Assembly (NCBI GenBank): GCA_022788185.1
Contig: JALEVV010000073.1
Span: 1 to 55,510, forward strand
Length of the DNA: 55,510 bases
From: Spirochaetales bacterium
GTDB taxonomy: Bacteria; Spirochaetota; Spirochaetia; Sphaerochaetales; Sphaerochaetaceae
Direction: 5' to 3'
Positions 8,336 to 52,644 of this stretch are shown piece after piece. A program made the translations under genes and the position numbers. Below the pieces are notes generated by a model, which ran no database searches, had not been told where the DNA came from, and was given only the letters and a program-made list of their open reading frames with translations. Positions within the stretch are counted from its first letter, which is position 1; each line of letters opens with the position of its first letter.

Positions 8336-9928
8336 TCACGACCAGAGCTTTTTCAGCCTGCTTCGGTCCAGCATCCCGACACTGTCCGCCGCAAGCGCCA
8401 CCTGAACCTGCAGGGAGGCAAGGCCTGAGGACGTCATGAAATAGTCCATTACGGAACTGAGCGCGACCGCAAGTGCGATTGCCTCAGAGGGAATGCCAAG
8501 CTGCAGGAATAGGACGGCAAACGTGGAAAGCGCTCCTCCGGGAATCGGAGGTGCAGCCATGGAAAGCAGTCCGATGCACAGAACAGCCATAATGAGGAAC
8601 TGCGGAGAAATGGAAATACCGTAAAACTCAGCCATGCACAGGACTATGGCAAAGAGTCCCAACACATAACCAGGCTTGTAAAGGACCTGTCCCAGGGGAA
8701 TGGCAAAGACCGCAACCTTCCCGGGTATTCCAAGCTCCTTTTCACACGTCTCCAGATTGATCGAAAGAGCGGCAGCCGAGGAAGCCGTCGACAGGGCTAT
8801 CAGATAGGTCGGCAGCATTTTCTTAATCAGCAGGATGGGACTTGCCGACAGCTTCACCGCGGCTACGGACACGTAAAACAAAGCCATCAGTATACTTCCG
8901 GGAATTGAAAGCAGGAATACCCTGAAAAGGCTCATGAATCCACTGTCAAAATCGGAAATCATAAGGTTGAAAAGGCTCAGGAAAACAAAAATCGGAACGA
9001 ATTTTCCCAGCACACCCATCAGGAACTGTATGATATCATTAACCTGCATAAGGAAACTCTGTACTGACGATACACGCTCTCCCAGAATGAGGAGGGTGGC
9101 ACCGAGACAGATTCCAAGGAATACCAGCTGCAGGCCATTCCCATTGAGAAACGGCGTGATGATATCGGAAGGCACGATTCCCAGCACCATCTGAATGATT
9201 TCAGAGAAATTACCGACACCTCCACCTGCTTCTCCCGCGGAAAGGGGAAAAAGCAGACAGCCTATGAGTGCCATGACTGCAGCCAGGACGAAAACTCCCC
9301 TGATCATACGTATTATAAGCTTCTGCCCGATTTTCCCCACAACCGACAGATCCCCGATGCTCACGATGCCGCAGCATACCGACAGGAATATAAGCGGGGA
9401 TGAAACCGAGCGGATCGCTCCGAAAATCAGATTGAAAAGGGGATTCGTTATCTGAGGTGCCAGACTCTGAATGGCAGGCACGGCCCTCACGCCGAAGCCA
9501 AGCACGACAGCCAGGATGACTGCAGTGAGCAGCTGGGCGAGCTGCCCGCCAGATGACTTCTTCTTAGGATTGCATGTAAGGCAGTTTTTCCCGTTCTTAT
9601 AAGCATACGAGAACGAGAGTCCCGACTGAGCGAGCATGCGGCTGGTAATGAGATACGCCTCATTATCCTTCTCCCAAGCGTCCATAAAGGGTCCGTCCAC
9701 GCTTATTTTCAGATAATCCCGACCGAATTTCCGTCCGCAGTCCACATGAACCGGAGCATCTTTCAGAGAAGCCAGCCAGATGCCGAGTATCTCCTCGAGG
9801 GAGAGGCGGATGCGGATAATATCCTTTTTGTCCGCACCTGCCGCCTCAAGAGTTTCCACGCAGATTGCGGACACCGAATCTATGGTCTGAGCCGACAGGG
9901 TGAATTTTTCATTTCGATTTGATATCAT
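8336..9928 (-). CDS. DAACS-type symporter fold with N-terminal anti-sigma-like (HATPase) domain; ion-site motifs lost
   Basis: A 530-residue fusion. Residues 1-125 resemble a degenerate RsbW/SpoIIAB HATPase domain (RIRLSLEEILGIWL at the N-box position, then KISVDGPF, and a final strand NCLTCN). Residues about 135-530 are a dicarboxylate/amino acid:cation symporter with about eight helices and hairpins. The serine-rich HP1 loop survives as STASSAAALS, but the helix 7 NMDG motif reads YKPG (about residues 417-420) and the helix 8 NxxGD region reads SSGLAS, so sodium and substrate binding look lost. The N-box lacks the Mg-binding asparagine. ATG 9928 follows a GGATGG-like site. Neighbours are a STAS protein and a second, more complete fusion. 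I infer a sensor or regulatory role rather than transport. Confidence 0.8.
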   Translation of the reverse strand: MISNRNEKFTLSAQTIDSVSAICVETLEAAGADKKDIIRIRLSLEEILGIWLASLKDAPVHVDCGRKFGRDYLKISVDGPFMDAWEKDNEAYLITSRMLAQSGLSFSYAYKNGKNCLTCNPKKKSSGGQLAQLLTAVILAVVLGFGVRAVPAIQSLAPQITNPLFNLIFGAIRSVSSPLIFLSVCCGIVSIGDLSVVGKIGQKLIIRMIRGVFVLAAVMALIGCLLFPLSAGEAGGGVGNFSEIIQMVLGIVPSDIITPFLNGNGLQLVFLGICLGATLLILGERVSSVQSFLMQVNDIIQFLMGVLGKFVPIFVFLSLFNLMISDFDSGFMSLFRVFLLSIPGSILMALFYVSVAAVKLSASPILLIKKMLPTYLIALSTASSAAALSINLETCEKELGIPGKVAVFAIPLGQVLYKPGYVLGLFAIVLCMAEFYGISISPQFLIMAVLCIGLLSMAAPPIPGGALSTFAVLFLQLGIPSEAIALAVALSSVMDYFMTSSGLASLQVQVALAADSVGMLDRSRLKKLWS

Positions 9929-9951
9929 AACTTATCCATCCGTATGAGGGC

Positions 9952-10248
9952 TTACCCGATTGTCAGGATATCGGAGAAGCCGGTTACCTCAAATACTTCC
10001 ATAACGGTTTCATTCACGTTCCTGATGACCATCGATCCCTGTCTCATCATGATTTTCTGCATTGCAAGGATAACGCGAAGCCCGGCAGAGGAGATGTACT
10101 CCAGCTTACCGAAATCCAGTACAAGCTCCGTAATCCCGCCGATACTGCTTCTGAGCTCCGCTTCAGCCACAGGGGCGGTTGTGGTATCGAGCCTCCCCTC
10201 AACTGTCACTTTCAGAGTGGTACCGTTCAGCTCTTTATTAATATTCAT
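9952..10248 (-). CDS. STAS-domain anti-sigma factor antagonist
   Basis: A 98-residue single STAS domain of the SpoIIAA/RsbV type. The strand-helix pattern is complete, and the phospho-site loop reads YISSAGLRVIL with serines at 53 and 54. In partner-switching systems an HATPase kinase phosphorylates this loop and the unphosphorylated form binds the kinase. Here it lies between two symporter genes whose N-termini look like HATPase domains, with no sigma factor or PP2C phosphatase nearby. This suggests it docks on the transporters (inference). The start is ATG 10248; only 23 bases separate its stop from the next gene. Confidence 0.92.
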   Translation of the reverse strand: MNINKELNGTTLKVTVEGRLDTTTAPVAEAELRSSIGGITELVLDFGKLEYISSAGLRVILAMQKIMMRQGSMVIRNVNETVMEVFEVTGFSDILTIG

Positions 10249-10300
10249 CTTTATTCTCCCGAAAAAATAATTTCTTTTTTTACTTCAAGCGTGACGCCTG

Positions 10301-11953
10301 TCAGCCCTTCTGATAATACTTATCCTTATCAAGCAGGTTCTCAGTGCCCGCAACGATTACGCTTGCGGCAACGTCTCCGGTCGTATTGGATGCGGTACAG
10401 ACCATGTCCGTTATCGTGAAGAATACCATCAGCAGGGGAATGCAGTCCATGGGAACTCCCGTCTGATTCAGCAGAACGGTACATGCAACCATAAACGCTC
10501 CCGGGACGCCCGGAGTCGCAACGGATACCAGCAGTCCGGATACAAGCAGCATGATGAGTTTACCGGAATCCATATCGACCCCGAATGATTTCGCCATGAA
10601 CAGTACTCCCGTCATGAAGGCAACCATGGCACCATCCATGTTGATGGTGGCACCGAAGGGAATCGAGAACGAGTAAACCCGCTGGGATATTCCGATTTTC
10701 CTGCAGAAATCCATATTGAGCGGCATGGAAGCATTGGATGAACACAGGGACATCACGTTCAGTGCCGTCGGAATATAGCGTTTCAGGAAGGGAAAAGGAC
10801 TGACTTTGGCCATCAGGGCTATCATCAGTGAGTAAGTGATGATCAGGATTACAAGGCCTGTGAGCAGCGTTCCGATCAGGGTCAGTAAGGATACAAGTGC
10901 ATCAGTTCCGGTAGTCAGGATCAGAATCATGACCGAGCAGAACGTGATCAGGGGAATCAGTCTGGCAAGCACCATTACCAACTGAAGAAACAGTTCATTC
11001 AGGGAATCAAAGATATTCTGAAGGACCTTTCCCTTTTCCCCGATCATATTGACCATCACCCCCAGGATCAGGCCCATGAGCAGTATCTGAAGGACATTGT
11101 TTTCGTAAAAGGCTCCCACGACATTGCTTGGGAAGATGTCAATGATGGTGTCCAGCAGTGATATTGAAGCACCGGAGGACGCTCCTGTCGTGATCATCGA
11201 TACGAAGCTGCCCTCAGTTCCGGGCTGAAGGAGATAGAAAACCCCTATTCCCGTAACACCCGCAACCAGGCTGGTAAACATATATATTCCCATTGTCTTC
11301 CCGCCGATCCGCCCGAAACTCCGCAGATCGGAGAACTGAATCATGCATGTGATCATGGAAAAGAACACAACCGGTCCCACCACCATCGACAGCAGGTTCA
11401 TGTAAATGGTTTTAATCGGATTCAGGACCATGCTGCATAGTGCGCCGGTGATGCTTTCACTCAGGAATAGACGCATGCAGACACCCATGATGACAGCCAG
11501 AACAATCGAAGAAAGCGTGACATACAGAGTCATCTGCGGATTCTTCTTTGTAATGATGTCAATGTAATTCATGTTCTTCCTGCGGGAGATTCTGAATTTA
11601 TCGGCAAATCCCTTCAGCAGCATGCTCTGAATCATTTCAATCGCATTGTCATCCACTTCGTCATCAAAGGCATGCTCCAGATCGGCTCCTGAGATCTCAA
11701 GGACATCGGAAAACCTGATTTCGCTTCCCCTGCACTTGATTTTCGTGATCACGCTGCCGAAAACGGAGCGTACCCATATCTCAAAAGCGGTTTTTTCCGG
11801 TGCATCCTTTTTTATCCTGAATAGGCATTCCTCAGCCAGGAGTCTGGTTTTGATGACATCCTTTTCAGACACCTTTTTCCCGTGAAGCTCATCAGAGAGA
11901 AACTCCAGAGCTTCGATAATACCTTCTTCCGACAGGTTAAATCTTCTCGCCAT
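10301..11953 (-). CDS. DAACS symporter with N-terminal anti-sigma-like (HATPase) domain
   Basis: A 550-residue fusion. The first 150 residues form a soluble HATPase-like domain (TRLLAEECLFRI at the N-box position, where the conserved asparagine is absent) that ends in a strand before the membrane part. The symporter part keeps key motifs: NMDG in helix 7 (PFGATINMDGAMV), CSSNASMP in the HP1 loop and TASNTTGD in helix 8, so ion binding is plausible. The usual helix 8 arginine is cysteine, so the substrate may not be aspartate or glutamate. The start is ATG 11953 with AAGGAAAT upstream, three bases after the stop of the binding-protein gene. It is paralogous to the gene at 8336-9928, whose motifs are eroded. 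Confidence 0.85.
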   Translation of the reverse strand: MARRFNLSEEGIIEALEFLSDELHGKKVSEKDVIKTRLLAEECLFRIKKDAPEKTAFEIWVRSVFGSVITKIKCRGSEIRFSDVLEISGADLEHAFDDEVDDNAIEMIQSMLLKGFADKFRISRRKNMNYIDIITKKNPQMTLYVTLSSIVLAVIMGVCMRLFLSESITGALCSMVLNPIKTIYMNLLSMVVGPVVFFSMITCMIQFSDLRSFGRIGGKTMGIYMFTSLVAGVTGIGVFYLLQPGTEGSFVSMITTGASSGASISLLDTIIDIFPSNVVGAFYENNVLQILLMGLILGVMVNMIGEKGKVLQNIFDSLNELFLQLVMVLARLIPLITFCSVMILILTTGTDALVSLLTLIGTLLTGLVILIITYSLMIALMAKVSPFPFLKRYIPTALNVMSLCSSNASMPLNMDFCRKIGISQRVYSFSIPFGATINMDGAMVAFMTGVLFMAKSFGVDMDSGKLIMLLVSGLLVSVATPGVPGAFMVACTVLLNQTGVPMDCIPLLMVFFTITDMVCTASNTTGDVAASVIVAGTENLLDKDKYYQKG

Positions 11954-11956
11954 TTT

Positions 11957-13069
11957 TTATTTCCTTTTCTTCAGGGCAGCATCCATCCAGTCGCAGGTCG
12001 GCATGTAACTGCTGTCCGTATAAGCGTCCGCTGCCACCTCGGAAAGATTTCTGACCGTGATGTTTTCTCCAGACATGATTTCTTCCTGTCGTACCAGGAC
12101 CGATGGGATCTCCATCCACATTCCGGGGCTTTCATAGTAGCTCAAAGCTTTCCTGATATCGTCATACTGTCCGGCCATTTCCAGCGCCAGCACCCGGCAT
12201 GCGAACTCGCCGTTCAGCGTCCAGTTGGTCGTGGCCGAGGCTTTCCAGTTCAGGCCTTCCGCCATAAAGGCAATATCCTCGTCACAGATATCCACGGATA
12301 CCATCGGGATGTCGCTTCCTGCTTCCCTGAGTGCCTTATAGACACCCTGGGCATAGGCATCATAGCAGCACCATATGGCATCTATCTCACCTTCTCCGTA
12401 TTTTTCAAGTGTCGCCTTTGTCACTTCTTCCATGGAGGATACCGGGCTAAGATGATCAGAGGGGGCAATCTGCTCCAGCGTCCTGATCTTTCCCACGGAT
12501 TCGTAAAGCTTATATCCGATCTGACGGCGGTCAAAGGCAATGATGTAGTTCTCCTCCTGTACCTGCAGGATATTCACCCTCTCCTTTTCCGGATACATGG
12601 CCAGGATCTCCTCCACAAGGACAGCTGCCAGTCCGGAATCCTGCTGGAACAGCTGCACCACCCCGTCGATCGTCTGAGTCTTTCCGTTTCCATCCCTGAA
12701 GGACGTATCGAAGGTTGCGATTTTGAGATTCGGGTACTCAGCAAGGACCTGTGTCAGGAACTCCCAGGAATAATCTGCTCCGCCATGGGATATAAGCAGT
12801 CCGTCATAACCATCCTCCGCACACCTGATGATCCTGCTTCTCAGGCTCTCATCACTGTCATTGCAGAAAAAGGCATCCGCTTCCATGCCGAGGGCTTCCG
12901 CAGTCTTTGTGAAGGACTCAACCCACAGATCGAAAATGGAAGAGGATGACATGTACATGATGTATGCCACCTTTTTCCCTTCAACCGGAGTGCTTTTCGT
13001 TTGAGAGCAGCCGGTCAGGCAGACGGCTGCCTGTAATACAGACAATAATAAAACAAGGGTTTTCCTCAT
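11957..13069 (-). CDS. sugar-type periplasmic binding lipoprotein (Peripla_BP_4-like)
   Basis: A 370-residue predicted lipoprotein (signal peptide with lipobox CLTGC at about residues 16-20) with a type I periplasmic binding fold: VAYIMYMSSSSIFDLWVESF at the first strand, DGLLISHGGAD near 90, and DAIWCCYDAYAQGVYKAL near 230. Such proteins bind sugars or autoinducer-like ligands. No matching sugar permease or ATPase is present; its neighbours are symporter fusions and an amino-acid-type ABC unit, so it may act as a ligand sensor. ATG 13069 was chosen over 13084 because GAGGAGT lies just upstream. Confidence 0.83.
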   Translation of the reverse strand: MRKTLVLLLSVLQAAVCLTGCSQTKSTPVEGKKVAYIMYMSSSSIFDLWVESFTKTAEALGMEADAFFCNDSDESLRSRIIRCAEDGYDGLLISHGGADYSWEFLTQVLAEYPNLKIATFDTSFRDGNGKTQTIDGVVQLFQQDSGLAAVLVEEILAMYPEKERVNILQVQEENYIIAFDRRQIGYKLYESVGKIRTLEQIAPSDHLSPVSSMEEVTKATLEKYGEGEIDAIWCCYDAYAQGVYKALREAGSDIPMVSVDICDEDIAFMAEGLNWKASATTNWTLNGEFACRVLALEMAGQYDDIRKALSYYESPGMWMEIPSVLVRQEEIMSGENITVRNLSEVAADAYTDSSYMPTCDWMDAALKKRK

Positions 13070-13095
13070 TGTTTCACTCCTCATTACTCACAGTT

Positions 13096-13120
13096 ACACC
13101 CTCTGTCTTCCAGAGGGTGT
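13096..13120 (-). repeat. intergenic hairpin between binding-protein genes
   Basis: A nine-base perfect stem ACACCCTCT/AGAGGGTGT (13096-13104 with 13112-13120) lies in the gap between the two binding-protein genes. It lacks a U-tract, so it probably acts on mRNA stability or expression ratio, not as a terminator. Confidence 0.5.
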
Positions 13121-13145
13121 CATTAATATTTTCATGGACATCGGA

Positions 13146-13955
13146 TTATTTACTCTTCATCGCTTCCAGAATCCTGTTCATGTCAAAGGATTTGGTCACA
13201 TAGGAGATCATATCCGTGTAATACTCATCGGTAAGCAGCAGTTCCTTCTTCTCTGAAGTGTATCCCTGCACATTGCCGTACCAGAAAATCACATCGATTC
13301 TCTCTGAACTCAGGGCTGAGAGACGGGCAGGCGCATCAACCTGAGTGAACGTAAAGGACACATCCATGACATCCCCTATTGCTTTCATCAGTGCCACATT
13401 GAAGCCTGCAGGTATTCCGTCGGCAGCGACATAATCCATCGGAGGCAGATCTCCGGTCACACCGACTATATAGGACTTTTCCCTCTGAACAATGTCCTCA
13501 AAACCTTCCAGCGAAATATCCGTAATGTAGTTTTTGATAAGCTCGTCAAGCTTTCCCTCACTTCTGAGAGTCCGGAGGCCTGTCTGAAGCACCTGGTAAA
13601 GCTCTGCATCCTCAGCGCGCACTGCCATGCGGATTTCCGTGGGAACACCGGCCCCGCCCGGTGCGACGGTAAGTGAATCATCCTGCGCCTTCAGATAGCT
13701 GGCAACGGATGTCGGTACAAGGATATATTCGATATTCCTGGCATTCAGATCCAGGATCATCGATGTAAGGCTGCTGTATTGTTTCCATTCACCGAGTGCG
13801 GGATGAGGGAATATCTCAAGATCTGATGGCTCCTGCCAATTCATGATGCCGCACTGAATGTTCTCATCCGATGCCACCTTCCTGCTGCACCCTGCCAGGA
13901 TGACAGTCAGCACAAGAATAACGATAACGCACATGAAACCGCACATTTTTCTCAT
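13146..13955 (-). CDS. periplasmic binding protein (PBP2 family) with lobes in permuted order
   Basis: A 269-residue predicted lipoprotein (hydrophobic segment then lipobox ILAGC). The half that normally ends an amino-acid binding protein comes first: SSLTSMILDLNARNIEYILV and a terminal-type helix LRTLRSEGKLDELIKNYI. The half that normally begins one comes second (YIVGVTGDLPPMDYV, then IPAGFNVALMKAIGDV and ERIDVIFWYG). The reading frame is intact. This suggests circular permutation, or a tandem PBP2 that lost its outer halves. The start is ATG 13955 with GGAGGAAG upstream, following the ABC ATPase stop by ten bases. It probably serves the adjacent permease and ATPase. Confidence 0.78.
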   Translation of the reverse strand: MRKMCGFMCVIVILVLTVILAGCSRKVASDENIQCGIMNWQEPSDLEIFPHPALGEWKQYSSLTSMILDLNARNIEYILVPTSVASYLKAQDDSLTVAPGGAGVPTEIRMAVRAEDAELYQVLQTGLRTLRSEGKLDELIKNYITDISLEGFEDIVQREKSYIVGVTGDLPPMDYVAADGIPAGFNVALMKAIGDVMDVSFTFTQVDAPARLSALSSERIDVIFWYGNVQGYTSEKKELLLTDEYYTDMISYVTKSFDMNRILEAMKSK

Positions 13956-13965
13956 CTTCTTCCTC

Positions 13966-15066
13966 CTACAATTCGATCTCGAATAAGTTGTTTTCCCCGT
14001 CAAAACGATAATCAAGCCGCTTTGCCGTATGATTTAAGATGGTGACGCCCAGATGGTTTTCGTCCTCAGGCTCCGTCTCAAAGGGGTTGTACCGCTCCCC
14101 TCTGCAGCTGAGGCGAATGGCCGCTGAGCCCTCCCGCTCGTCAAAGGAAATCAGGAGCCGGATATCCACGCCTGAACCGGAGCTGAGGCTGCCAAGCATT
14201 TCAAAGATAAGTTCCTCGGTGCACAGCTGAAGACGATAGGCTCTCTTTTCATCCATCCCGTACCTTCCCGCGAAGGTGCGTATGCTGCCCTGGAGCTGCA
14301 GGAAATCAAAATCCCGGCTGTCAGTCTGCCACGAGAAATACTTCATCCTGTGGATGAAATCCCTGGTCCTGCTTTTCTTCGGGGCATCAAAGATCTCCTC
14401 CGGCGTACCTTCCTCATAGATGCCCTGTTCATCCATGTAGAGAATCCTGGTTGCGATTTCCCTGGCAAAAGCCATTTCATGGGTGACTATCACCATGGTC
14501 ATCCCCTGCTTTGCCAGCAGTCTCAGTGTCGCAAGCACCTCCCCGACCATGGTAGGATCCAGTGCAGAGGTGGGCTCGTCAAAAAGCATGACCTCGGGCT
14601 CCATGGCAAGACAGCGGACAATGGCGATTCTCTGTTTCTGGCCACCCGAAAGATGTTCCGGCATCATGTATTTCTTACCTGAAAGGCCCACCATCTCCAG
14701 AAGCTTTTCCGCTTTCCTTTCAGCTTCCTTTCGTGAGAGTCCGAGCAGCTTAACGGGTGCGAGCGTGATGTTATCCAGTACATTCAGATGGGAAAACAGA
14801 TGAAAGCCCTGGTAAACCATCCCCACCCTGCGCCTGATGCGGTTCAGATCGGCCTTCGGCGCTGTCAGCTCCTCATCCATAATGAAAACCTTTCCCGCAT
14901 CCGGCTTTTCCAGCAGATCCATACAGCGGAGGAATACGCTTTTACCGCACCCTGAACCACCAATTATTACAATCCTCTCCCCTTTTTCAACAGTGAGGTT
15001 CACATCCTTCAGAACGTGTAAGGAACCGAAGGACTTTGACAGGTTTTCCACCCGGATCATGTTCAT
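13966..15066 (-). CDS. polar amino-acid ABC transporter ATPase fused to a C-terminal HATPase-like domain
   Basis: A 366-residue protein. Residues 1-250 form a GlnQ/ArtP-type ATPase: Walker A GGSGCGKS, signature [11 protein letters not shown], Walker [14 protein letters not shown], switch histidine VTHEMAFA. Residues about 255-366 are an added domain resembling RsbW-family HATPase_c: [14 protein letters not shown] at the N-box, GERYNPFE at the G1-like loop, then [15 protein letters not shown] and a final FEIEL strand. The N-box asparagine is missing. Normal family members end near residue 250. It overlaps the permease stop (ATGA). The added domain links the transporter to the STAS protein encoded three genes further on. 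Confidence 0.85.
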
Positions 15067-15749
15067 GCCTTCATTCTCCTATCCCGTCTCAGTGCATTAA
15101 GCCTGTCCGCCAGGGCAAAGCCCCCATAGCAGGCATATGCCATCCCGAGATACAGAATCAGACCCACGATGATCATGAATAGAGGCTGCATCGTACGGCT
15201 TCCTATATTGTTGATGACTCTTGTAAGATCCGTGATCGTGACATAGCCGACCACGCTGGTCCACTGAACCAGGGTGACGATCGTGGACTGATAGGTTCCC
15301 TTTGCAATTTCTGCAGCCTGAGGGAGGGTAATCAGGGTAAATGCCTGCCACCGGGAAAACCCCAGCGTCCTTGCAGCTTCTCTCTGCATGGCATCGCATG
15401 CCATTATGGCGGAATGAAAACACGCTGCCGAATAAGCGCTCATGTGAAGCGAAAAAGCAGCCACGGCCACTGACTCCGCACTAACCCCGCTTCCTGCAAA
15501 CACCACATAGTACATCAGCATCAGAAGCAGCAGAACCGGACTTCCCCTGAGTACGGCGATATAAAGGGCGACAAGGCGCGAAAGCGGCCTGAAACGGCTT
15601 CCCCTCATCGCTGTGACCAGCATTCCCATAAGAGTTCCGAGGATCACCGACAGCAGTGAAATATACAGAGTAACGCCAAGCCCCTTCAGGAGTGTCCTCC
15701 AGGAATTACCGGCAATGAGGGTACTGTATATCACTTCACTGATGTTCAC
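15063..15749 (-). CDS. polar amino-acid ABC transporter permease
   Basis: A 228-residue HisM/GlnP-type permease of about five membrane helices, with the EAA loop [22 protein letters not shown] that contacts the ATPase. The start is GTG 15749, nine bases after AAGGAGG; an ATG inside the ribosome-binding region leads only to an immediate stop. It is the first gene of the minus-strand string that continues through the fused ATPase, two binding proteins, two symporter fusions and the STAS gene. The substrate is unknown. Confidence 0.9.
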
Positions 15750-47940: not shown

Positions 47941-48004
47941 AGCGTTAAACCTCAATGATTATTTTTTATAAAAAAACATGGCTTTGTACAATACCAACAC
48001 CCCC

Positions 48005-48043
48005 TTGCAAATTATTTTGATAAGACCTTATATATATAGGTCT
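48005..48043 (+). promoter_or_regulatory. MATE promoter with palindromic operator
   Basis: -35 TTGCAA (48005-48010) and -10 TATATA (48029-48034). The perfect inverted repeat AGACCT-N9-AGGTCT (48023-48043) covers the -10 and the predicted start point and ends at the base before ATG 48044. No ribosome-binding site is present. Confidence 0.62.
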
Positions 48044-49384
48044 ATGCAGAAAACCAACATAATGCAGAGCGAGACAATTCCCCGTCTCCTCTTTAAAATG
48101 TCCTTCCCAATGATGCTGAGCATGCTGATCCAGGCGCTTTACAACGTCGTGGACAGTATCTTCGTCGCCATGGTTTCCGAAACCGCCCTAACGGCAGTAT
48201 CTCTGGCGTTCCCGCTTCAGAACCTCCTGATTGCGGCTGCGGTCGGTACCGGGGTCGGTGTCAACAGCCTCCTTTCAAGACGCCTCGGCGAAGGAAGGAC
48301 AGAGGAAGCAAATGCGGTAGCCTCCTCCGCACTATTTCTTGCGTTAGCCCTTTCAGTTATCTTCATCGCTATAGGTCTCTTTCTGGCAAAGCCCTTCCTT
48401 GCTCTTTTCACCGACAGCAGTGAGCTGCTGGAGCTTTCCGCCTCATACTCCAGGATATGTCTCATAATATCCTTTGGATGCATGTTTTCCATTACAATCG
48501 AAAAACTCATCCAGGCCACGGGAAATTCGGTACAGCCCATGACGATGCAGCTGACCGGAGCGATAATGAACATAGTTCTTGACCCCGTATTCATCTTCTT
48601 CTTCGGTCTCGGAGTGAACGGTGCGGCCATCGCCACCGTGCTCGGACAGATCGGATCGATGGTACTGGCCTTCATATTCCTTAAGAAAAACAGCTACATC
48701 ACCATAAGGCTGAAGGACATCCGTCCAAAGGCAAAGATCATAGGTGAAATATATCAGGTAGGTCTTCCCACCATCATAATGAACAGCATCGGTACCGTAA
48801 TGGTCTCCGTCATCAATGCCATCCTCATCGGCTTCTCAGCCACGGCGGTTTCGGTCTTCGGTGTTTATTTCAAGCTCCAGTCCTTCGTCTTCATGCCCGT
48901 CTTCGGTCTCAATAACGGCATCATCCCGATTCTGGGCTTCAACTACGGTGCAAGGAACAGAAAGCGCATGACTGCCACCATGAAGCTGGGCCTTTTGGTC
49001 GCCCTTACGATAATGATACTGGGTACCCTGCTCTTCCAGCTGTTCCCATCCGAGCTTCTGTCCCTCTTCAGTGCCTCTGAGGAGATGTATGCGATTGGAA
49101 TTCCGGCACTGAGGATAATAAGCCTCTGCTTCATACCTGCCGCCATTTCGATAATACTGATCTCATCATTCCAGGCAACCGGCTTAGGACTGGCATCCAT
49201 GATGGTCTCGATCATAAGACAGCTGCTGGTGCTCTGCCCCGCGGCATTCATACTCTCCAGGTTATTCGGGATCAATGGAGTATGGGCCAGCTTTGCCCTT
49301 GCCGAGTGCTTCGGACTGACGTTCTCGGTCATTTTCTTCATCCATGTATACAAAACCAGAATAAGGAATCTGGAAAGAAGGTAG
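48044..49384 (+). CDS. MATE-family efflux transporter
   Basis: A 446-residue, twelve-helix multidrug/toxin extrusion protein in two six-helix halves. N-terminal motif PRLLFKMSFPMMLSMLIQALYNVVDSIFVA and the FPLQNLLIAAAVGTGVGVNSLLSRRLG stretch are typical of the NorM/DinF-like branch. ATG 48044 directly follows a palindrome covering the -10 box; an upstream frame to 47978 would place the promoter inside the gene. The amino-acid ABC binding-protein gene begins six bases after its stop, so the two may share a transcript. Confidence 0.92.
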   Translation: MQKTNIMQSETIPRLLFKMSFPMMLSMLIQALYNVVDSIFVAMVSETALTAVSLAFPLQNLLIAAAVGTGVGVNSLLSRRLGEGRTEEANAVASSALFLALALSVIFIAIGLFLAKPFLALFTDSSELLELSASYSRICLIISFGCMFSITIEKLIQATGNSVQPMTMQLTGAIMNIVLDPVFIFFFGLGVNGAAIATVLGQIGSMVLAFIFLKKNSYITIRLKDIRPKAKIIGEIYQVGLPTIIMNSIGTVMVSVINAILIGFSATAVSVFGVYFKLQSFVFMPVFGLNNGIIPILGFNYGARNRKRMTATMKLGLLVALTIMILGTLLFQLFPSELLSLFSASEEMYAIGIPALRIISLCFIPAAISIILISSFQATGLGLASMMVSIIRQLLVLCPAAFILSRLFGINGVWASFALAECFGLTFSVIFFIHVYKTRIRNLERR

Positions 49385-51053: not shown

Positions 51054-51908
51054 ATGGACAACAAGAGCATAGAAACTCTCGTTAAGACAGAGACTATCAG
51101 GAAAAAGGTAGTCTCTGTCGATCCTACAAAGGACGAGACAGTCAGGACCATAACGATGACCGATGGTCCGCTTATCCCGAAGAAAGGTGAGAAACACCTG
51201 ATGACCAGCTGGCGCATAACGTTTTTCCTTGCGCTGGCTGTCCTGTTGTTTCTGGTCATCTTCCGCCCGGATCCATACCGCGAGATCTTCATCGTATGTA
51301 TCAAAGGTGCTCCGGTAACCTTCGAAGTAACGATCTTCGCGATCATAGGTGCAGTATTCATCGGTGTCTTCACCGGACTCGGTTCCGTTTCGAAACACCA
51401 TGTCATCAATATGATCAGCGGTGTCTACGTCGAGTTCATCAGGGGTATTCCTCTCCTGGTACAGCTTATCTTCATCTACTACGCCCTCGGACGCTTCTTC
51501 CACATCGAAGGCATGATAGCCGCAATCATAGCGCTTTCAATCTGTTTCGGTGCATATATGGGTGAAATCGTCAGGGCCGGTATCCAGGCCATTCCCAAGG
51601 GACAGATGGAAGCTGCCACAGCCCTTGGCCTTACCAGAACACAGGCATTCATCCATGTAATCCTGCCCCAGACCGCAAAGGTCATCCTCCCGGCCATCGG
51701 AAATGAGTTCATCTCCATGCTCAAGGATTCATCCCTTGTTTCCCAGCTGGCACTCGCCGATATCCTGAGAAAAGGAAGGGAATACATCTCAAGAACCTTC
51801 CTGTCCCTTGAGACAATGCTCGTGGTTGCGCTGATCTACCTGATTTTCACACTCATCCTTTCCCGCTTAGTCGGTTTACTTGAAGAGAGGCTTCACAAGA
51901 ATGGCTAA
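51054..51908 (+). CDS. amino-acid ABC transporter permease
   Basis: A 284-residue HisM-type permease. A cytoplasmic N-terminal extension of about 50 charged residues precedes the first membrane helix. The EAA loop reads [24 protein letters not shown], and the ending helices ([18 protein letters not shown]-like) are normal. It lies eight bases after the binding-protein gene and overlaps the ATPase by eight. Extension function unknown. Confidence 0.94.
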
Positions 51909-52644
51909 AATAGAGATACGGAATCTTTGCAAGGACTTCGTTGCCAACGGCATCAGGACAGTCCATGCGGTTAAGAATGCATCCCTTACCGTCAACGACG
52001 GTGAAGTGGTCGTAATCATCGGTCCCTCCGGCTCCGGAAAGTCAACGCTCCTCAGAAGCGTGAACATGTTTGAGACTCCCACCAGCGGAAAGATCTTCAT
52101 CGATGACATCGAAGTCACCGATCCCAAAACAGACCTCAGGAAGGTCAGGGAGGAAGTGGGCATGGTATTCCAGTCCTTCAACCTCTTCCCTCACCTCACG
52201 GTGCTCGATAACATCACGCTTGCACCCAGAAAGGTCCTGAAGATGGAAAAGAAGGAAGCTGAGGAACTTGCCATGAAGCTTCTGGACAAGGTAGGTCTGA
52301 AGGATAAGGCAAAAAGCCATCCCAATCAGCTTTCCGGCGGACAGCAGCAGAGAGTGGCAATTGCCCGATCCCTGGCAATGAGTCCCAAGGCGATGCTCTT
52401 CGACGAACCCACCTCAGCCCTCGACCCCGAGATGATCAAGGAGGTTCTGGACGTCATGCTGGACCTGGCCAAGGACGGAACTACTATGCTGCTGGTAACC
52501 CATGAGATGGGATTTGCCAGAGCCGCAGCCGATAAGGTCGTCTTCATGGACAGCGGCGAAATCATCGAGGAGGGTGCACCCGAAGAGATATTCACCCATC
52601 CGAAAAGCAAGAGAACAAAAAGCTTCCTCGACCACATTCTCTGA
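51901..52644 (+). CDS. amino-acid ABC transporter ATPase (GlnQ type)
   Basis: A 247-residue ATPase with Walker [11 protein letters not shown]-loop [20 protein letters not shown], signature [16 protein letters not shown], Walker [15 protein letters not shown] and switch histidine VTHEMGFA. Length is normal for the family, with no added regulatory domain, in contrast to the homologue at 13966-15066. ATG 51901 was chosen to match the family start. A terminator follows within a few bases. Confidence 0.95.

Follow-up and report, generated by a model that had tools for sequence, protein, structure and literature searches.

A transport operon with a STAS gene

The stretch of DNA analyzed here, called the window, comprises 55,510 nucleotides of a Spirochaetales bacterium (assembly GCA_022788185.1, contig JALEVV010000073.1), and the subject of this report is a seven-gene transport operon at positions 8336 to 15749 that also encodes a STAS protein. 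All seven open reading frames (ORFs) lie on the minus strand, with neighbors separated or overlapping by at most about 60 bases, and are transcribed in the order ABC permease, ABC ATPase, SBP_bac_3 lipoprotein, type 1 periplasmic binding protein (PBP1-type) lipoprotein, first DAACS symporter (DAACS1), STAS protein, and second DAACS symporter (DAACS2). A scan of the window proteins against Pfam and NCBIfam profiles agreed with the families that a preliminary description of this DNA had assigned to these genes, each of which was found where it had been placed.

The ABC unit begins with the PAAT-type permease P0007 (positions 15063 to 15749; 228 amino acids, GTG start), which matched BPD_transp_1 (E = 7.5e-14) and, above its cut-off, the PAAT permease profile HEQRo_perm_3TM. 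The ATPase P0006 (13966 to 15066; 366 amino acids) matched ABC_tran (3.5e-34), and its Walker and LSGGQ motifs look normal on inspection; its best NCBIfam matches, all under the equivalog cut-offs, were TcyN/EhuA/GlnQ of the polar amino acid type. Two lipoproteins follow, P0005 and P0004, in which the lipobox-like sequences LTGC and LAGC are visible. The solute-binding protein (SBP) P0005 (13146 to 14015; SBP_bac_3, 1.2e-16) is listed with a TTG start, and the in-frame ATG at about position 13955 is the likelier one. Its halves are swapped, with residues 78 to 164 matching the C-part and residues 180 to 268 the N-part of a type 3 SBP in the PDB; it resembles a circular permutant, perhaps derived from a tandem SBP like GlnP. 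P0004 (11957 to 13084) is a PBP1-type protein that matched Peripla_BP_4 slightly under the cut-off (1.8e-8), and the operon holds no cognate permease for it.

The two symporters, P0003 (DAACS1; 10301 to 11953; 550 amino acids) and P0001 (DAACS2; 8336 to 9928; 530 amino acids), matched the SDF profile (PF00375) at 1e-82 (residues 149 to 535) and 7.3e-57 (residues 131 to 500), respectively. An Endonuc_subdom match on P0003 (0.055) was taken as chance. Between them lies the gene for P0002 (9952 to 10248), a single-domain STAS protein of 98 amino acids encoded by an ORF of its own and not fused to a transporter. P0002 scored 70.7 bits against TIGR00377, the anti-sigma factor antagonist family (cut-off, 53.45 bits). 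Its S54 (codon at 10087 to 10089) was aligned, in PDB alignments, with the phospho-serine of SpoIIAA and RsbV, which we take to be S58 and S56, respectively, and both S53 and S54 were kept in all 89 STAS domains labelled in related loci. A scan for promoters and terminators gave nothing usable (4 promoter-like sites versus 7.0 in shuffles). The genes beside the operon include what we take to be Lpt-like genes, which would fit a diderm and probably a spirochaete.

Domains added to the transporters

Three of the transporter proteins carry extensions. In the symporters, the SDF match starts only at residue 149 (P0003) and residue 131 (P0001), and the N-terminal domains ahead of it span residues 1 to 141 (positions 11531 to 11953) and 1 to 128 (9545 to 9928), respectively; the ATPase P0006 has a C-terminal domain at residues 245 to 366 (13969 to 14334). 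The preliminary description had likened all three to the HATPase domains of RsbW and SpoIIAB. AlphaFold2 models of the P0001 and P0006 extensions bore this out at the level of fold, since their best matches in Foldseek and in VIA (applied to Foldseek's top 1000 matches) were UsfX, RsbW, and SpoIIAB, ahead of other GHKL proteins, as in the anti-sigma subtype of the GHKL fold. The P0003 extension was placed by alignment and profile: it aligns with the extension family of P0001 and matched the A3 model at 1.4e-35, a model whose alignment includes the P0003 extension itself.

Further comparison used profiles built from DAACS extensions (A3), ABC extensions (A4), and intact RsbW domains (A7). The hhalign probabilities were 97.9 for A3 versus A7, 97.5 for A4 versus A7, and 97.8 for A3 versus A4, compared to 0.2 for A3 versus STAS, the negative control. 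Single sequences were less telling. The C terminus of P0006 gave a weak HATPase_c_2 match (E = 0.14, residues 262 to 360), and neither DAACS extension of the window gave a HATPase match in the profile search, so that HATPase identity of the N-terminal extensions lies beyond simple profile search. As internal controls, a plain PAAT ATPase (51880 to 52644; 254 amino acids) and a plain MATE protein (47978 to 49384; 468 amino acids) in the window matched no HATPase family at 0.01, and a third DAACS protein found in the genome (L046 6808 to 8076, contig C24; 422 amino acids) matched none of the extensions.

Comparison of the catalytic residues showed a clear difference between the extensions and intact RsbW domains. 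The latter, taken from STAS loci, had the N-box Glu and Asn and the Asp of the DxG motif in 19 of 19 cases; we assume the roles of these residues from work on SpoIIAB and histidine kinases. Among 20 DAACS extensions, the catalytic Glu position was E in 17 and D in 3, the Asn was present in 3, and the DxG Asp in none; all 18 ABC extensions had the Glu, and none had the Asn or the Asp. Pooled, the Asp was lost in 38 of 38 and the Asn in 35 of 38. The extensions of the window likewise lack the N-box Asn and the DxG Asp, the Asn site being occupied by I50 in P0001, R in P0003, and E45 in P0006. The DAACS and ABC extensions thus seem to be pseudokinases that have lost the kinase reaction, as judged from their sequences. 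The extensions on MATE proteins were mixed: by inspection, some retain the E...N and D motifs, and one MATE C-terminal domain matched HATPase_c_2 at 2.6e-11.

The two symporters also differ in their transport motifs. DAACS1 retains NMDG and the N..GD motif of transmembrane segment 8 (TM8). In DAACS2 the Na-site motifs are degenerate: NMDG is replaced by YKPG, and the TM8 N..xxGD motif is also gone. NMDG was missing from all 18 DAACS2-type proteins (P0001 and 17 relatives), with the TM8 Asp mostly gone too, compared to its presence in 4 of 5 plain DAACS proteins (NMNG in the fifth) and in 4 of 6 DAACS1-type proteins. This loss means that DAACS2 may be differently coupled or may serve as a transceptor. 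DAACS1 has a Cys at the site occupied by Arg in five plain DAACS proteins, which, by presumed analogy with ASCT2, would fit neutral amino acids.

STAS and extended transporters in related genomes

Related loci were taken as the best 80 of 564 relatives in a STAS scan of genome contigs. They came mostly from records titled as metagenome-assembled genomes (MAGs) of Clostridia, Lachnospiraceae, and Oscillospiraceae, many from animal gut. Neighbors were counted in 78 of them, L113 and L123 being left out because the STAS row was lost in the ORF filter. A transporter matching the extension profiles lay within 6 kb of STAS in 34 of the 78 loci (17 MATE, 14 ABC, and 11 DAACS; the MATE labels include weak matches, the poorest at about 1e-3), PP2C was present in 49, and an RsbW-model match in 48. 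The extension was present on all 11 full-length DAACS proteins of the filtered table and on a twelfth, a second one in L065 that the filter had dropped; the fragments in L075 (183 amino acids) and L098 (118 amino acids) were left out. In all, DAACS, PAAT ABC, and MATE proteins carried extension matches, as did a single ABC exporter-like ATPase ORF (L237).

The window's own genome holds a second such locus. Contig C21 carries another STAS gene, whose product is 64% identical to P0002, along with genes for a 574-amino-acid MATE protein with a C-terminal extension, a methyltransferase, and a GNAT protein. It also encodes a SpoIIE-HATPase_c_2 protein, which is cut off by the end of the contig and whose RsbW domain is intact. 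With the ATPase extension as query, the MATE extension was found at E = 6e-4. Elsewhere in the genome, C27 has a second, weaker SpoIIE match, and C90 has a stand-alone HATPase_c_2 ORF of 165 amino acids above the cut-off, among what we take to be hydrogenase-type genes. In the same genus, L018 (genome G012) has STAS, an SBP-permease fusion, an ATPase with a C-terminal extension, DAACS2, and PBP1. In the same family, L019 (G022) has a permease, an ATPase with a C-terminal extension, SBP, PBP1, STAS, a 936-amino-acid protein, DAACS2, and an SBP-permease-ATPase-extension fusion; the 936-amino-acid protein matched 5TM-LYT, HAMP (below cut-off), SpoIIE (6.9e-51), and HATPase_c_2 (5e-13). A PP2C-RsbW protein lies inside the operon in L019, L051, L062, and others, and the kinase motifs of such proteins in relatives' operons are intact. 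The earlier remark that no PP2C is present therefore stands for the operon of the window, in which neither the ORF list nor the profile scan contained PP2C or RsbW; it does not extend to the genome, given the C21 protein, or to the operons of relatives.

Parts of the operon were closer to those of other lineages than to the same-family locus L019. Over the full length, P0006 was 80.6% identical to its counterpart in L049, an Oscillospiraceae MAG, compared to 71.2% for L019, and P0007 was 78.9% and 71.2% identical, respectively. P0001 was 65.9% identical to its counterpart in L051, a Peptococcaceae MAG, compared to 44.7% for L019. These identities suggest that operon parts moved between lineages. 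P0004 was 69% identical to its counterpart in L062 and 66% identical to that in L019.

The preliminary description had expected symporters with such N-terminal extensions to co-occur with STAS, and two genome surveys agreed. In the window's class (297 genomes), the extension was found in 8 genomes (G000, G021, G046, G089, G116, G137, G147, and G156) and STAS in 19, which include all 8, at E < 1e-20 for both, a cut-off set after the lists were seen. The hypergeometric P value, uncorrected for kinship, was 5.5e-11 (8.7e-10 without the window's genome) and is too small, because six of the eight genomes belong to one genus and because the cut-off was chosen afterwards. At the original, looser limits, 16 of 17 genomes matching the extension model had a STAS match, compared to 141 of 297 overall, and several of those 17 matches were RsbW-like ORFs, not DAACS.

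The second survey covered 295 genomes of the clostridial order to which G326 belongs, L099 being a locus of G326. Each of 18 extended DAACS proteins was checked by retrieval of its ORF, and all 18 genomes with a full extended DAACS had STAS (E <= 1e-20), compared to 71 of 295 overall (hypergeometric P = 1.2e-12, uncorrected for kinship and with the cut-off chosen after the lists were seen). Removal of two genomes first found through STAS left 16 of 16 versus 69 of 293 (P = 2e-11). Twelve of the 18 genomes had no STAS of this strength within 6 kb of the extension match, in some perhaps owing to short contigs, and for these unlinked cases alone the figures were 12 of 12 versus 65 of 289 (P = 7e-9). 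Three of 21 candidate genomes had been set aside: G381 (a stop-containing fragment, with STAS not found at 1e-20), G468 (an RsbW ORF), and G571 (an RsbW-sized ORF plus an exporter); with these included, 20 of 21 have STAS. Among individual genomes, STAS was present in six with extended DAACS (G005, G012, G022, G023, G025, and G026) and was not found in three with plain DAACS (G003, G006, and G010). Among the genomes behind 14 chosen loci, an extended DAACS protein was found in 12, the exceptions being the genomes of L049 and L097. In L013 (G005, contig C8), a stop-riddled STAS remnant lies around 9556 to 9678, just downstream of an extended DAACS gene, as if the pair had once been linked there.

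The survey of neighbors brought other associations to light; it covered 137 of 142 unlabelled neighbors, five of more than 1,000 amino acids being left out and two of those scanned apart, with families judged among the 25 commonest of 115. CstA-family transporter genes lie beside operons at L018 12103 to 13545 and among 3 of the 137, and GH3-family (amide synthetase-like) genes were among the commonest neighbors (5 of 137, including L099 15143 to 16768). In L061 (12872 to 14050), STAS is fused to an APH-type phosphotransferase fold, and L053, L085, L090, and L116 have similar ORFs as judged by size and STAS position. In L080, L096, L112, L117, and L124, STAS and a stand-alone RsbW (with PP2C too in L112) are followed by an ORF of 156 to 161 amino acids and ABC exporter-like ATPases. 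Near extended DAACS genes of the G046 genome lie small ORFs at L014 8022 to 8273, L015 486 to 767, and L017 3475 to 3714 (about 4.5 kb off), of which one matched Nif11 above the cut-off (3e-6), one below it (9e-4), and the third only DUF2624, weakly.

Interpretation and comparison with known systems

The best reading of these results is that the extended transporters are direct outputs or inputs of partner switching, to which STAS would bind with an effect on transport. We think it fairly probable that the operon is a partner-switching module with transporters, and not a sigma factor, as its outputs. DAACS N termini, ABC ATPases, and MATE C termini are cytoplasmic, in the same compartment as STAS. 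Unphosphorylated STAS would dock on the pseudokinase domains and alter transport, in either direction. An intact RsbW domain would phosphorylate STAS at S54 and so release it, and a membrane PP2C with 5TM and HAMP sensing parts, as in L019, would remove the phosphate on a signal, perhaps one that the orphan PBP1 lipoprotein conveys. With the kinase reaction apparently lost from the extensions, STAS would stay on the transporter until a separate kinase or phosphatase acts, and through such lasting binding a single pool of STAS could set several transporters at once. In the window's genome, the SpoIIE-RsbW protein of C21, the only one found, would serve both STAS proteins in trans; the C27 match and the C90 ORF are further candidates for the kinase or phosphatase role.

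The flow of information may run the other way. The extended transporters would then act as sensors, with substrate state or flux altering their hold on STAS, which in turn would act on PP2C-RsbW, a sigma factor, or another regulator. The absence of NMDG throughout the DAACS2 type is odd for an ordinary symporter, the operon has an orphan binding lipoprotein, L057 has an ECF sigma gene, STAS, and an extended MATE gene in one row, and BceAB-type transporters are known to act in sensing. However, the motifs of DAACS1 are canonical, the ABC unit appears whole and its ATPase normal, and no separate output gene is kept across the listed operons, so we hold this to be unlikely, though the most serious of the alternatives. 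Still less probable is that the extensions are catalytically active, phosphorylating STAS or one another in the manner of RsbW, and differ from it only in being tethered to transporters. The retained catalytic Glu, the Asn in 3 of 20 DAACS extensions, and the better-preserved MATE domains fit such an activity; the near-complete loss of Asp and Asn from the DAACS and ABC extensions, both of which are intact in every RsbW domain compared, argues against it.

At the far end of the scale are two readings that we consider very improbable. In one, the extension serves as a structural module or binds a metabolite, and STAS is a passenger of the operon. G033, with an extension-like DAACS and no STAS, fits this, but the co-occurrence holds without visible linkage, related domains recur on unrelated transporters, and the folds matched best are those of kinases that bind STAS. 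In the other, just as doubtful, STAS works in the usual way, releasing a sigma factor from an anti-sigma kinase, and the domains on the transporters act as decoys or are incidental. By its profile P0002 is an ordinary anti-sigma antagonist, and the C21 protein offers an intact RsbW domain. The absence of a sigma factor noted in the preliminary description is true of the window, where no sigma-70 or extracytoplasmic function (ECF) sigma gene was found, and ECF sigma genes were likewise not found in L013, L018, L019, or L044. It does not carry over to all related loci: ECF-type sigma genes (by Pfam) were present in 6 of the 80 STAS loci, at distances from STAS of -22 (L057), 7,852 (L062), 3,069 (L063), 7,811 (L072), 5,202 (L107), and 164 (L108) bases, and thus adjacent in two. 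In L057 the sigma gene (9406 to 9945) overlaps the STAS start and the extended MATE gene comes after, and in L108 (9322 to 9834) it ends 164 bases before STAS, with a stand-alone RsbW after. Sigma candidates came from an unfiltered profile search with three sigma ORFs, which suits near relatives only (L198 and L200 were not cross-found), and then from Pfam. The window's genome itself has four sigma-70 region 2 genes, on C16, C49, C88 (ECF-sized), and C20. None of them lies on C54 or C21, however, and no SigB/F/G-type sigma factor scored over the cut-off in this genome (1 of 14 control genomes has one); the two loci with an adjacent sigma gene compare with 34 of 78 with an extension-bearing transporter. 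Sigma control by this STAS family is therefore likely in a minority of loci, and it is conceivable here.

Besides these sigma genes, several results weigh against direct control of the transporters. The operon of the window itself has no PP2C or intact RsbW. G033, a genome 96% complete, has a DAACS protein with a diverged, partial extension (contig C56; L022 4769 to 6397, L234) but gave no STAS match at 1e-8. In the genome of L049, which has the nearest relative of the ABC part, no extended DAACS was found at 1e-10. Many of the surveyed genomes are MAGs. In 37 of the 78 loci only PP2C or RsbW was found near STAS, and in 7 none of these, which means that the STAS family serves other outputs too and that co-occurrence is no proof of contact. 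Finally, A3 found no HATPase among PDB sequences, only unrelated weak matches; HATPase_c_2 was matched by only 4 of the 20 members of the DAACS-extension family; and the MATE extension of the window's genome matched no HATPase family at 0.01 (HATPase_c_2, 0.07). With direct searches giving few or no HATPase matches, the kinship of the extensions to RsbW is a matter of fold and profile-profile evidence.

Even so, the results suggest a switch rewired to act directly on transport. Partner switching is textbook transcription control, and the fusions make candidate STAS targets visible on unrelated transporters. More tentatively, and with rather more doubt, the operon may represent a widespread and undescribed gut-bacterial class in which eroded anti-sigma kinases serve as plug-in STAS sockets on DAACS, PAAT ABC, MATE, and perhaps ABC exporter proteins, one phosphorylation switch sets several transporters post-translationally, and the DAACS2 branch is a switch-gated carrier or transceptor. 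If direct control is correct, phosphorylation of a single small protein would let bacteria adjust uptake and efflux with no need for transcription, and in gut genomes some genes annotated as "anti-sigma factor antagonist" would be labelled with the wrong target. The system suits direct tests, with small soluble domains, a 98-amino-acid regulator, and possible transport assays.

The closest likeness is to SpoIIAA-SpoIIAB and RsbV-RsbW of Bacillus subtilis, in the STAS serine at the phospho-serine site, the SpoIIAB/RsbW-fold domains, and the PP2C-RsbW proteins of relatives; here, however, the RsbW-like domains are eroded and fused to transporters, and SigB/F/G-type sigma factors are not in evidence. 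A canonical sigma partner-switching operon has PP2C and RsbW together, as does L019 but not the operon of the window. Among ABC transporters, the C-terminal domain of the ATPase lets a regulator or ligand set transport in MalK (inducer exclusion by EIIAGlc), MetN, and OpuA. This control resembles that proposed for P0006, whose domain and regulator are different. Descriptions of SiaABCD of Pseudomonas aeruginosa give as its output a diguanylate cyclase bound through its stalk (PMC7647112, PMC8457831) and not transporters bearing RsbW-like domains; the likeness drawn is one of mode of working only. SypA-SypE of Vibrio fischeri and other STAS-only proteins, single-domain like P0002, are described as having non-sigma or unknown targets set by a kinase and a phosphatase (PMC10120452, PMC8256260); the targets of several are given as unknown (PMC8256260), whereas here candidate targets are visible as fusions. 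No description of transporters bearing RsbW-like domains was found in the open-access literature by title or the start of the abstract, and the available part of PMC2887360 has no such fusion. In the portion of a 2021 STAS review that was available, transporters occur only as SLC26/SulP (PMC8256260). SulP/SLC26 proteins likewise join a transporter to a partner-switching part, but there it is STAS that is fused, whereas in this operon the fusion involves the kinase-like partner and STAS stands alone.

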